From Haloarcula marina (GTDB lineage: Archaea > Halobacteriota > Halobacteria > Halobacteriales > Haloarculaceae), in NCBI RefSeq assembly GCF_024218775.1, contig NZ_CP100404.1, positions 806,001-870,000 of the forward strand: a DNA stretch of 64,000 nucleotides, given 5' to 3'. Below are positions 1,306 to 8,516 of this stretch, one piece after another. The position numbers and the translations under genes are program-made. Under the pieces are notes generated by a model. That model did no database searches and was not told the origin of the DNA. It saw nothing but the letters and a program-made list of their open reading frames with translations. Every line of letters begins with the position of its first letter. Position 1 is the stretch's first letter.

Positions 1306-1391
1306 ACGTACCGGTAGCGGGGGCCACGGTATAGAGTGTTGTGCCGACTCGTCGCCCGGACCCGACCGACTCCGATACCGATTTGTTTCGG

Positions 1392-1448
1392 GTGTAAGCC
1401 ACACGCTTATGCGGACGCCGCCGCTATCTCGTGTAACGGCGGTTACAC
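1392..1448. promoter_or_regulatory. Operator-like inverted repeats before the PAS/GAF regulator
   Basis: GTGTAAC-ggcg-GTTACAC at 1431-1448 is a perfect 7-bp inverted repeat, ending 14 bp before the ATG. A related half-site, GTGTAAG at 1392-1398, is followed by GCTTATGC at 1405-1412, an imperfect partner. The two half-sites lie 39 bp apart. The placement suggests binding of a dimeric regulator, possibly the product of the downstream gene; that link is inference. Confidence 0.5.
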
Positions 1449-1462
1449 GCCGGGGAAACCGA

Positions 1463-3040
1463 ATGAAGCCACCACAGACGCTCGCGCACTCGACGCTCGA
1501 TACGCTCCCCATCAACATCGCCGTTCTCGACGAGTCGGGGACGATTCTGTTCACGAACCGGGCGTGGCGTGAGTTCGCTGGCGTCGACCGCGGCGAGATG
1601 CAGGGCGTGAACTACTTCGAGACGAGCGACGTGGAAGCAGACGAGTACGCCGGTCGTGCCGTCGAAGGGATCAAAGCCGTCATCGACGGCGAGCGGGACC
1701 TGTTCACGCTGGAGTACCCCTGTCACTCGCCCGAAGAGAAGCAGTGGTTCCTGATGCGAGTCGCGCCGCTCCCCGAGGAAGAGGCCGGGAGCGTCGTCGT
1801 CGCGCACATCGACATCACACAACGGAAACTGGCCGAACTGGCGGCCGAACGACGCAGCGAGCAGTTACAGGCCGAACGCTCGAACCTCCGGCACCTCGTC
1901 GACCGACTCGACGGACTGGTCACGGCGGTCATGGCCGACGTGCTGACGGCGGACTCGCGGGCGGCTATCCAGCAGTTAGTCGTCGACCGACTGGCGACCG
2001 TCGACTCCTACCGGTTCGCGTGGATTGCGACGTTCGACCTCCGGGACGAGACGCTCCGCCCGGCGGCGCTCTCGGCGGAACGGGACGTCGACGCCGCGAT
2101 AGCGCTCGACGACGACGACCCGGTGGCGCTGGCGGCCCGGACCGAGGACATTCAGGCCGCGACAGACGCGGGACCGATACACGACGAGATGTGCGGTGCG
2201 CCCGTCGACGCCGTCGCCGCGGTTCCGCTCGTCGCGGGCGAGTCGCTGTACGGGGTCCTGACGGTGTACGCCGACGACCCGGACGTGTTCGACGAGCGCG
2301 AGCGAGCGGTTTTAGGGGCGGTCGGACAGGCCATCTCGGCGGCCATCAACGCCCGCGAGACGAGCAGACTCCTGACCGCTGACAACCTCACCGAACTGGA
2401 ACTGCAGACGCGCGACACGGACGTGTTCTTCGTCGCGCTTGCCCGCGAACTCGGCTGTCGGATGACCTACGGCGGGAGCGTCGCCGACGGGGAGGAGACG
2501 GCCATGTTCTTCCTCGTCGAGACGGACGACCCGTCGGCGGTCTGTGCCGCGGCGACCGACCACCAGCAGGTGTCGGCGGTGACTCACGTCTCGACGGCGG
2601 AGGACTGCTCGCTGTTCGAGTTCACTGTGGAGACGGCGCCGCTCGTCTCGCTGCTGGCCGACAGGGGGGCCGAGACCCGAGATATCGTCGTCACGCCGGA
2701 CAACGCGACGGCCACGGTGACGCTCCCGGCGGCCACCGAGACGCGCGCGGTGGTCGAACACGTTCGCAGGCGGTACCCTGACGTGGAACTGCTGTCGGTT
2801 CGAGAGCGCGACGAACCGCCGATGACCCGACAGGCGTTCCTCGCGACGCTCGAAGACAGGCTGACCAACCGCCAGTTGACGGCGCTCCGGAAGGGGTATC
2901 TCGGGGGCTTTTTCGACTGGCCGCGGGACGTTTCCGGGGAGGAACTGGCCGAGTCGATGGACATCTGCCCGTCGACGTTCCATCAGCATCTGCGGGCCGG
3001 TGAACGGAAGCTACTCGAAGCCGTCTTCGAGACGTGGTGA
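1463..3040 (+). CDS. PAS/GAF sensor with bat-type HTH-10 domain (bacterio-opsin activator-like regulator)
   Basis: A 525-aa one-component regulator. Residues about 10-120 form a PAS domain (NIAVLDESGTILFTNRAW near the start) ending in a short PAC-like part (VVAHIDITQRK). A short coiled stretch follows. Residues about 150-300 are GAF-like (VDRLATVDSYRFAWIATFD, then AAVPLVAGESLYGVLTVY). Residues about 310-460 match the bacterio-opsin-activator middle region. The C-terminal 60 residues are an HTH-10 domain (LTNRQLTALRKGYLGGFFDWPR). No histidine kinase is present, so signal sensing and DNA binding are in one polypeptide. The ATG at 1463 is chosen because homology begins there; the open frame upstream reads non-acidic sequence. 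An inverted repeat at 1431-1448 lies just before the start and may be an autoregulatory operator. Confidence 0.88.
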   Translation: MKPPQTLAHSTLDTLPINIAVLDESGTILFTNRAWREFAGVDRGEMQGVNYFETSDVEADEYAGRAVEGIKAVIDGERDLFTLEYPCHSPEEKQWFLMRVAPLPEEEAGSVVVAHIDITQRKLAELAAERRSEQLQAERSNLRHLVDRLDGLVTAVMADVLTADSRAAIQQLVVDRLATVDSYRFAWIATFDLRDETLRPAALSAERDVDAAIALDDDDPVALAARTEDIQAATDAGPIHDEMCGAPVDAVAAVPLVAGESLYGVLTVYADDPDVFDERERAVLGAVGQAISAAINARETSRLLTADNLTELELQTRDTDVFFVALARELGCRMTYGGSVADGEETAMFFLVETDDPSAVCAAATDHQQVSAVTHVSTAEDCSLFEFTVETAPLVSLLADRGAETRDIVVTPDNATATVTLPAATETRAVVEHVRRRYPDVELLSVRERDEPPMTRQAFLATLEDRLTNRQLTALRKGYLGGFFDWPRDVSGEELAESMDICPSTFHQHLRAGERKLLEAVFETW

Positions 3041-3104
3041 GACCGCCGAAAACCCGCTGATGTCGCCGTCGCCCTCGTGGGGTCCAAAGTAGTTTGGTGT
3101 TGAG

Positions 3105-3110
3105 TTTAAA
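3105..3110 (+). promoter_or_regulatory. TATA-like box in the crtB upstream region
   Basis: TTTAAA in an otherwise GC-rich 255-bp spacer (3041-3295). It lies about 185 bp before crtB, so it would imply a long leader. A weaker candidate (acgtatcac near 3259) lies about 35 bp before the ATG. I cannot decide which is used. Confidence 0.35.
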
Positions 3111-3295
3111 GTGGCGCGACCCGAAGTAGTATGTAGACGATGTGTCATCCTGTTTCGGGTCGAATGAACCAGCAGAGTTCCGACGCGGCGGATGCCTCCC
3201 GTTTGCGGGACGGACGGCCCGCGTCGGCGTGCCCGAAACCGGATTCTACCCCGGTGAGGACGTATCACTAGCCGAGTAGCCCGTCGCCCCAATCA

Positions 3296-4267
3296 ATGCA
3301 ATCTGACAACATCCGAACGAGCAAATCGATTCAACAGCAGACCGGTCGCACGTTCCACCTCGCGACTCGCGTCCTTCCCGAGCGCACCCGCTATCCGACC
3401 TACGTGATGTACGCGTTCTTCCGGGTCGCCGACGAAGTCGTCGACCAACCCGACGGCCCGCCGCCGACGGTCCAACACGAGCGACTGGAACAGATTCGGG
3501 AGACGGCACTGGGTAACCGCGACCCGGAGGACACCGAGGACGGGGCCGTTTTGGAAGCGTTCCGGGAACTGGTCGTGGAACACGACATCCCCGACGAGGA
3601 GATAAACGTCTTCATCGACGCGATGGAGATGGACATCGCGCAGGCCCGCTACGAGACGTTCGCAGACCTCCGGGAGTACATGCGCGGGTCGGCCGTCGCC
3701 GTCGGCAACATGATGACGATGGTGATGGACCCGCCGCGGAAAGAGGAGGCCCTGCCGCACGCCGAAGCGCTCGCCGAGGCGTTCCAACTGTCGAACTTCC
3801 TGCGCGACGTTCGCGAGGACATCCACGACTACGGGCGCGTCTATCTCCCCCAGGAGACGCTAAAGCGCCACGGCGTCACGGAGGACCAACTCGCCAACGC
3901 CGAAGTCGACGAGGGCTTTCGCGCGGTGATGCAGGAGGAACTGGCCCGCACTGACGACCTCTACCGCGAGGGCGTCGCGGGCATCCGATACCTGCCCGAG
4001 GACTGCCAGTTCGGGGTCCTGTTGTCGGCGGTGCTGTACGCCGAACACCACCGCCTCATCCGTGACCGGGGCTACGACGTGCTGACCGAAACGCCGCAAC
4101 TGACTCGCCGCCGTCGCCTCTGGTTGCTCGCCCGCACGTGGTGGCACTGGCGGCGCAACGGCGACCCCGAGGCGACGTTCTACTCGGTCAGCGCCGTCTC
4201 CGAGCGACGGCCGGAGCGGATGCAGGCCGACATCCCGAGTCACGGCAAACCGACGTGGCGCGGGTGA
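3296..4267 (+). CDS. crtB: Phytoene synthase
   Basis: A 323-aa member of the squalene/phytoene synthase family, which condenses two geranylgeranyl diphosphates to phytoene, the entry step to bacterioruberin-type carotenoids. Both Asp-rich Mg-diphosphate motifs are present: DEVVD at 46-50 and DVRED at 171-175, the second within LSNFLRDVREDIHDYGRVYLP-type family sequence. Length and the N-terminal SKSIQQQTGRTFHLATR segment fit haloarchaeal CrtB. The gene stands alone here: no lycopene cyclase, desaturase or elongase gene is next to it. The ATG at 3296 fits the family start. Membrane association is expected from its lipophilic substrate but no TM helix is obvious. Confidence 0.93.
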   Translation: MQSDNIRTSKSIQQQTGRTFHLATRVLPERTRYPTYVMYAFFRVADEVVDQPDGPPPTVQHERLEQIRETALGNRDPEDTEDGAVLEAFRELVVEHDIPDEEINVFIDAMEMDIAQARYETFADLREYMRGSAVAVGNMMTMVMDPPRKEEALPHAEALAEAFQLSNFLRDVREDIHDYGRVYLPQETLKRHGVTEDQLANAEVDEGFRAVMQEELARTDDLYREGVAGIRYLPEDCQFGVLLSAVLYAEHHRLIRDRGYDVLTETPQLTRRRRLWLLARTWWHWRRNGDPEATFYSVSAVSERRPERMQADIPSHGKPTWRG

Positions 4268-6294: not shown

Positions 6295-7188
<894 letters not shown>

Positions 7189-7562: not shown

Positions 7563-7580
7563 GTTCGGCACACGCCGAAC
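7563..7580. promoter_or_regulatory. Palindrome in divergent promoter region of the HTH-10 regulator
   Basis: GTTCGGC-acac-GCCGAAC is a perfect 7-bp inverted repeat, ending 11 bp upstream of the regulator's TATA box. A near copy (16 of 18 positions) lies at 8424-8441 in front of tfb. Candidate operator. Confidence 0.55.
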
Positions 7581-7591
7581 GTCTGCGGGGG

Positions 7592-7598
7592 CTATAAG
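7592..7598 (+). promoter_or_regulatory. TATA box for the HTH-10 regulator at 7624
   Basis: CTATAAG about 29 bp before the ATG at 7624. Confidence 0.6.
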
Positions 7599-7623
7599 CC
7601 GCTCCGCGTTGTACGGCCGGTAG

Positions 7624-8409
7624 ATGCGCGAGTTCATCTTCACTATCGACTACGAGCGGGGGGTCGACCCGCTGATGGACGTGTTTATCGACTACCCCGA
7701 GACGCACTCTCGGACTATCGCCTGTAACGTCACCCACGACGGAATGTGGCGACTGGAACGGGTCGCTGGCTCCGAGGCGGCGCTGGACCGACTCGACGAG
7801 GTGTTCGACAGCCCCGTCCAGTGTACGGAGTGCATCGGTACCCACGAGTGCGAGACGGAGTGGCACTACGAAGTCATCGCGGCCGAGGCGGGCCGCCGCA
7901 CCGTCTACAGCTATCGCTCGGAGGCCGGTGACTGCCACTCTATCCCCCGACTCGCAATCGAACACGTCGGCAACGGCGTCCTCTGCGAGACGGAACGACG
8001 CGGCAGTCGCTGTGAGTGGCGACTCCTGCTGTGTAGCGACGCTGGCGTCGACGACCTGTTCGCGGCGCTCGAGACGGAACTCCGGCCCGGCCTCACCGTC
8101 GAGTTCCGACAACTGGGCGAACCGGCCTACTGGGCCGACGAGGCCGTGTCGCTGGCGGAACTCCCGCCGGAACAGCAGGCCGCCGTCGAGGCCGCCGTCG
8201 AACACGGCTACTACCGGACGCCGCGGGACGTGTCGCTGACCGAACTCGCGGAGCAACTCGACGTGTCTCGCTCGACCCTCCAGTACCGCCTCCAGCGGGC
8301 CGAAGCGTGGATTGTCCGGTCGTTCGTCACGCGGTCGATGGGACCGGTCGAAGCCGACGAGTCGGTGGCCGAGGGGACCCGTCTTCGGGTCGGTCGAACC
8401 GGCGTGTAA
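7624..8409 (+). CDS. Bat-type HTH-10 transcriptional regulator
   Basis: A 261-aa regulator. The N-terminal about 150 residues form the bacterio-opsin-activator-like sensor region. It holds a Cys/His cluster, C67, C70, H74 and C76 (CTECIGTHEC), which could bind metal or respond to redox. The C-terminal HTH-10 domain spans about 160-225 (LPPEQQAAVEAAVEHGYYRTPR, then LTELAEQLDVSRSTLQYRLQRAE). It is preceded by a palindrome and a TATA box, and the next gene downstream (tfb) carries a near copy of the palindrome, which suggests autoregulation plus control of tfb. The ligand is unknown. Confidence 0.87.
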   Translation: MREFIFTIDYERGVDPLMDVFIDYPETHSRTIACNVTHDGMWRLERVAGSEAALDRLDEVFDSPVQCTECIGTHECETEWHYEVIAAEAGRRTVYSYRSEAGDCHSIPRLAIEHVGNGVLCETERRGSRCEWRLLLCSDAGVDDLFAALETELRPGLTVEFRQLGEPAYWADEAVSLAELPPEQQAAVEAAVEHGYYRTPRDVSLTELAEQLDVSRSTLQYRLQRAEAWIVRSFVTRSMGPVEADESVAEGTRLRVGRTGV

Positions 8410-8423
8410 CTATGCCGACAGTA

Positions 8424-8441
8424 GTTCGGCATACGCCAAAC
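8424..8441. promoter_or_regulatory. Second copy of the palindrome, upstream of tfb
   Basis: GTTCGGC-atac-GCCAAAC differs from 7563-7580 at two positions. It also overlaps a longer hairpin, TATGCCGA (8411-8418) with TCGGCATA (8426-8433). It sits 76 bp before the tfb ATG. Confidence 0.5.
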
Positions 8442-8481
8442 GAGTGCTGATACCCGAAGCAGTCGTTCGATAGAGTACACA

Positions 8482-8507
8482 CGCGAGCGGCGATTCCGTC
8501 GCTCGCG
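8482..8507 (+). promoter_or_regulatory. Stable hairpin in the tfb leader
   Basis: CGCGAGCG (8482-8489) pairs perfectly with CGCTCGCG (8500-8507) across a 10-nt loop, ending 9 nt before the tfb ATG. It is GC-rich enough to fold in mRNA and may affect initiation; that effect is inference. Confidence 0.5.
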
Positions 8508-8516
8508 ACCCCCATC

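Follow-up and report, generated by a model that had tools for sequence, protein, structure and literature searches.

HTH_10-type regulators and palindromic promoter motifs are already known from haloarchaea (PMC11218638, PMC10062603). The regulators include Bat, NarO and DmsR, which share the HTH_10 domain with the regulator studied here (PMC11218638). Bat proper carries PAS and GAF domains besides its HTH domain, while NarO and DmsR have neither (PMC11218638). Our regulator resembles the latter two and differs from Bat in this respect, since a search for PAS or GAF domains gave no match at E values up to 0.001. The targets also differ: NarO, DmsR and Bat act on respiration or bacteriorhodopsin genes, whereas the apparent targets here are the regulator gene itself, a TFB gene and the gene of a DUF7127 protein.

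Two described DNA elements can be compared with the palindrome reported here. The GvpE element consists of two half-sites with a 4-nt spacer and lies beside the BRE, as does our palindrome, but its half-sites measure 8 nt instead of 7 nt (PMC4390858). GvpE is leucine-zipper-like (PMC4390858), whereas our protein combines HVO_2928_N and HTH_10 domains. In Haloferax mediterranei, denitrification promoters carry a semi-palindromic motif, CGAAYATDKTYG, and mutagenesis shows that it matters for nor and nosZ (PMC10062603). Both this motif and our palindrome are short palindrome-like elements upstream of haloarchaeal start codons, but the Haloferax motif has another sequence, serves denitrification genes and is not assigned to a named regulator in the accessible text (PMC10062603). 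Finally, combinations of TBP and TFB in haloarchaea are said to confer a degree of promoter specificity (PMC7289017). The tfb gene described below is one of seven TFB-like genes in its genome, yet it has a seemingly dedicated and conserved regulator and operator. In the titles and abstract openings of the literature that we searched, whose coverage leaves out most subscription journals, we found no report of a dedicated regulator or operator of a haloarchaeal tfb gene, or of this palindrome; HVO_2928, the namesake of the regulator family, is named there in a single paper, for an antisense transcript.

The locus lies in a 64-kb window (G000:C1:806001-870000), by which we mean the whole stretch of DNA analyzed, on the main contig of a 3.74 Mb haloarchaeal genome. 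A preliminary description of this DNA had reported two near-identical palindromes, one 11 bp before the TATA box of a regulator gene and one upstream of tfb. Both are present (Table 1) and identical to each other at 16 of 18 positions, and their placement relative to the TATA-like element and to tfb is as described. The regulator passes the curated cut-offs of both Pfam families, with 226.6 bits for PF24281 (cut-off 27) and 54.1 bits for PF04967 (cut-off 23.1), and it is the one HVO_2928_N protein of its genome. Its closest relatives in named genomes belong to Haloarcula and its group (84-92% identical). The tfb product contains PF08271 and two stretches of PF00382, that is, the zinc ribbon and the two cyclin-like repeats of a TFB, and scores below the NCBIfam subfamily cut-off (358.5 versus 384 bits). 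Upstream of the regulator, positions 6295-7188 encode a DUF7537 protein whose lipoprotein-like start is followed, early in the chain, by a low-complexity segment with many Gly, Asp and Ser residues. At 8411-8433, an extra half-site forms a second arrangement, TATGCCGA-N7-TCGGCATA, which overlaps palindrome 2 and is absent from the closest relatives.

Table 1. Features of the regulator-tfb locus (positions within the window)
Feature	Position	Strand	Basis and remarks
Palindrome 1, GTTCGGC-ACAC-GCCGAAC (GTTCGGCACACGCCGAAC)	7563..7580	+	Exact in sequence; proposed operator in the regulator's own promoter
TATA-like element of the regulator, CTATAAG	7592..7598	+	Sequence; a TATA-like element is conserved here across aligned orthologues
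Regulator, HVO_2928_N + HTH_10, 261 aa	7624..8409	+	Pfam PF24281 and PF04967
Palindrome 2, GTTCGGC-ATAC-GCCAAAC (GTTCGGCATACGCCAAAC)	8424..8441	+	Exact in sequence; proposed operator of tfb
tfb TATA candidate 1, TGATAC (weak)	8448..8453	+	6 bp past palindrome 2; bases conserved in the footprint
tfb TATA candidate 2, GATAGAG	8469..8475	+	Sequence; 27 bp past palindrome 2
tfb, transcription initiation factor IIB, 336 aa	8517..9527	+	Pfam, NCBIfam; TFIIB repeats and zinc ribbon

Matches to the palindrome with up to 3 mismatches are no commoner in the window than in shuffled sequence (10 versus a shuffle mean of 13.1). Such loose matches thus carry no meaning; they were dropped as evidence, and the analysis was limited to exact or near-exact matches. 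A genome-wide search for the motif had been proposed as a check in the preliminary description. In the whole 3.74 Mb genome, GTTCGGC-N4-GCC(A/G)AAC (GTTCGGCNNNNGCCRAAC) occurs at 2 places, which are precisely the regulator and tfb promoters, against 0 for the reversed control. Allowing up to two mismatches to the 18-mer GTTYGGCRYRYGCCRAAC gives 8 places versus 1 for the control, and one of these 8 sits 37 nt before a DUF7127 gene, referred to below as copy 'a'. Of the one-mismatch palindromes in this genome, judged by eye, C1:2524742 apparently lies within a coding stretch and C2:321122 between genes. The latter (TTCGGCAGATGCCGAA, at C2:321122-321137 on the second contig) is a possible further target.

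Species comparison yielded the degenerate pattern TTYGGC-RYRY-GCCRAA (TTYGGCRYRYGCCRAA), which we then searched in 32 genomes of the genus. It was found at 55 exact places in 25 of the 32, while the reversed pattern was found in none (0/32). Base composition alone predicts about 2 places (assuming 64% G+C and 127 Mb of DNA; the listed genome sizes total about 123 Mb). Sorting by location relative to the regulator gene and DUF7127 'a' puts 25 of the 55 places before the regulator, 17 between the regulator and tfb and 13 before DUF7127 'a', with 0 left over. The preliminary description had named a frequent and randomly placed motif as the outcome that would speak against its proposal; what we find is that 55 of 55 exact matches in the genus fall at three promoters. 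In a sample of 116 family genomes, 7 of the 102 outside the genus contain the exact pattern, at one place each, and 3 contain the reversed pattern, so that these occurrences amount to noise.

The two sites flanking the regulator gene are kept across the genus. An orthologue of the regulator (83-100% identical) is present in 28 of the 32 genomes, and tfb follows it in all 28. Upstream of the regulator, the best 18-mer shares 16-18 of 18 positions with the palindrome consensus in 28/28 genomes and always lies 40-45 nt from the start codon. For tfb, 27 of 28 loci have an upstream 18-mer that agrees with the consensus at 15-18 of 18 positions and lies 67-77 nt away from the start codon; the exception (L053) comes from a genome that is 58% complete and in which the regulator frame runs into tfb. 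Among shuffled window stretches, 14/5000 of 150 bp and 21/5000 of 200 bp reach 15/18 or more; these shuffles, like those used below for homologues and tfb upstream regions, preserve base composition and not dinucleotides. The intergenic gap between regulator and tfb varies from 102 to 525 bp among orthologues, and the distance of the palindrome to tfb is maintained. All 28 regulator sites and all 27 tfb sites keep GGC and GCC unchanged, and all but one of them have purine-pyrimidine-purine-pyrimidine as their four central bases. Because it is conserved at fixed positions across 28 genomes, the site is far beyond chance.

The third group of sites precedes a small DUF7127-family gene (PF23444), copy 'a', which is unlinked to the regulator and accounts for the 13 remaining exact places in the genus. 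Copy 'a' was found in 26 of the 32 genomes, and in 26/26 its upstream region carries a palindrome that agrees at 15-18 of 18 positions and lies 37-40 nt from the start codon, upstream of a TATA-like box. In several species the central four bases of this site lose the purine-pyrimidine alternation. The site in our own genome is degraded, with two mismatches, yet recognizable (GTTCGGCACAGGCCGACC). A second copy, 'b', has no palindrome in the nine loci inspected, where the best match reaches 10-13 of 18. The preliminary description had proposed that the regulator controls itself and tfb. According to our comparison, the palindrome does behave as an operator common to both; that description had overlooked the third target and, as described below, the recurrent occurrence of tfb genes beside regulators of this family.

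In the four genomes of the genus that lack the regulator (G005, G006, G014 and G017), the exact palindrome does not occur anywhere. A close copy of this tfb was not found in them either, the best match being 67-68% identical, which is the level of paralogues, and of the DUF7127 copies they have 'b' only. A protein search had suggested that DUF7127 is wholly missing from these four genomes, but the family search showed the other copy, so that the absence concerns copy 'a' alone. The two further genomes without a detected copy 'a' (G025 and G028) are 80% and 71% complete. The joint absence may represent a single event in one lineage, and it is no test of the site apart from its genes, since tfb and DUF7127 'a' are absent too.

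Comparison thus establishes the sites, their restriction, their fixed positions and their co-occurrence with the regulator, together with the related sites of homologues presented below. We consider it likely that the HTH_10 regulator binds the palindromes, regulates its own gene and controls the dedicated adjacent TFB; a shared, conserved docking site before both genes suggests as much. The HVO_2928-type protein would recognize the 18-bp element GTTYGGC-RYRY-GCCRAAC, probably as a dimer; the two 7-bp half-sites of this element are 11 bp apart, about one helical turn. Through this element the protein would control its own gene, the adjacent tfb and the unlinked gene of the small DUF7127 protein. 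The conserved Cys and His residues would probably receive the signal, which may be a metal, a redox change or thiol-reactive compounds. Seven cysteines (34, 67, 70, 76, 104, 130 and 137) and three histidines (28, 105 and 114) are invariant in 13 close orthologues, and Cys34, 67, 70, 76 and 104 and His114 are common family-wide (46-64 of 77 alignment rows). This conservation fits a sensor role. A structure model built from the 13 close orthologues was poor (mean pLDDT 51).

The position of the sites bears on the direction of control. At the regulator and DUF7127 'a' promoters the palindrome lies just upstream of the BRE/TATA region, and at tfb it does so under one of two TATA assignments. Candidate 1 is weak in our genome, but some relatives in other genera have ATATAAC or TTATAAC at roughly the same offset; near the position of candidate 2, part of the orthologues have TATAATT or TACAATT. 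Since the sites are upstream of the promoter box, in a position similar to that of the GvpE element (PMC4390858), an activator is more probable than a repressor if control is exerted at all. The regulator would then probably act by recruiting TFB/TBP, and the circuit would be a self-reinforcing switch through which a single dedicated TFB becomes more abundant. We also noted an inverted repeat, GCGAGCG...CGCTCGC, immediately 5' of the start codon in the tfb leader (8483-8509). It looks alike by eye in relatives, but RNAalifold gave no consensus pairs (19 of 28 loci aligned) and a conserved hairpin was rejected.

To place the locus within its family we turned to distant homologues. We searched 293 genomes of the order and obtained related regulators at E values up to 1e-60 from 70 genomes, 16 of them from the genus. 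We took 76 distant homologues, 62 from this search and 14 from the genus search, and dropped one (L156) for which too little upstream sequence was available. An exact TYGG-N6-CCRA core is present within 100 bp of the homologue's own start in 43 of the remaining 75, against 0.5% in shuffles. These cores fall into two main classes, with 20 at 6-11 nt and 21 at 30-43 nt before the start (2 are elsewhere), and the classes cluster on the family tree (17 changes versus a shuffled mean of 39). Orthologues in Haloarcula have the upstream class of site, and their sister clade has mostly the near-start class.

Two of these results count against our main reading: 32 of the 75 distant homologues have no exact core, and 20 of the 43 cores are at a distance that looks repressor-like. 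The same regulator might use the same sites to repress its own gene and tfb, releasing both once its cysteines become modified or it binds a metal. A protein bound 6-11 nt before the start codon would block transcription, the sister clade mostly shows this arrangement, and with TATA candidate 2 the distance between site and box at tfb would tell no direction. Because so many homologues carry the site near the start codon we retain this alternative, and we regard it as unlikely for the Haloarcula locus, where the regulator and DUF7127 'a' sites lie upstream of the TATA-like box and not over it, as in the GvpE element (PMC4390858).

Association with a tfb gene also extends beyond the genus. A tfb gene is present within the examined flanks (about 1.5-3 kb) of 22 of the 75 homologues, and of none of the 14 genus paralogues; we estimate the chance expectation of such a neighbour at about 1%, on the basis of seven tfb genes per 3.7 Mb genome. 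The exact core lies within 220 bp upstream of the adjacent tfb in 14 of the 22, a count in which several TFB start codons are uncertain. Under a stricter limit of 150 bp it is found in 11 of 21 (shuffles 0.9%), where L079 was left out for missing upstream sequence, the site at L119 is one of the regulator side, and L120 and L155 were given other start codons than in the first count. On a TFB tree, the regulator-adjacent TFBs do not form a single clade. One ancient, inseparable regulator-TFB pair is therefore unsupported, and the pairing may have formed or been reshuffled repeatedly. As a control, we inspected 195 other ORFs near the homologues, of which 12 have an exact core, above the level in shuffles. 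Most of these core-bearing neighbours look like real co-targets located beside the regulators, so that the control is not clean.

A conserved site before the regulator gene is no proof that the gene's own product binds there, and another DNA-binding protein could recognize the palindrome, with the HTH_10 regulator merely one of its targets. We find this improbable, given that related palindromes precede the 43 homologues of the same regulator in several families of the order, that the four genus genomes without the regulator are also without an exact site, and that beyond the genus the exact pattern is noise. It is very improbable that palindrome 2 is an RNA hairpin, for instance one at which the regulator transcript is terminated or processed, instead of a tfb operator: it is self-complementary and starts 14 nt past the regulator stop codon, but no T-run follows it, its spacing to tfb is kept whatever the length of the intergenic gap, and both the regulator and the unlinked DUF7127 'a' have this motif upstream as well.

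Under the preferred reading, in which the regulator itself binds the palindromes, the genes next to its homologues suggest what it may sense. Ten of the 12 core-bearing neighbours were scanned: they encode two heavy-metal P-type ATPases, an NADH:flavin oxidoreductase, a luciferase-like monooxygenase, two MFS transporters and four amidohydrolases. These neighbours and those of the Haladaptatus locus described below, which may resemble bacterial quinone-stress genes, suggest that the signal may be metal or thiol-reactive stress. At three loci in genomes of the genus (L173, L174 and L175), more distant paralogues that are 33-35% identical adjoin a P-type ATPase gene, and a TTTGGAATATTCCAA-like palindrome lies 32-35 nt before that gene; the ATPase has a heavy-metal domain in L173 and L175, both of which were scanned.

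On a plasmid of Haladaptatus pallidirubidus (L236; NZ_CP085302.1, 450847-457560), a homologue is divergent from an annotated tfb-spt4-rpoP operon (1353-3723), which is an accessory set of basal transcription parts. Beyond this operon lie another HTH gene, DoxX and a ring-cleaving dioxygenase. Counting this place in, relatives of the HTH gene occur at five loci and relatives of spt4 at 2 of the 76 homologue loci (L116, which is the same place, and L129).

Tentatively, and with somewhat more doubt than confidence, we suggest that the locus could represent a widespread haloarchaeal module, in which a cysteine-rich HVO_2928/HTH_10 sensor and its own dedicated TFB (accompanied by spt4 and rpoP on the Haladaptatus plasmid) are linked through a palindrome specific to the family. 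As in bacterial sigma-factor circuits that depend on a signal, the sensor would turn on one TFB and thereby redirect RNA polymerase to a stress gene set, and the site in the sensor's promoter would have shifted between activator-like and repressor-like positions by lineage.

To our knowledge, little is known of how the amount of any single haloarchaeal TFB is controlled. A conserved module of sensor, operator and TFB, with an 18-bp site at just two or three promoters per genome, makes control at the level of a TFB directly testable in a genetically workable species. For the large HVO_2928 regulator family, the analysis adds a DNA motif along with a group of neighbouring genes.
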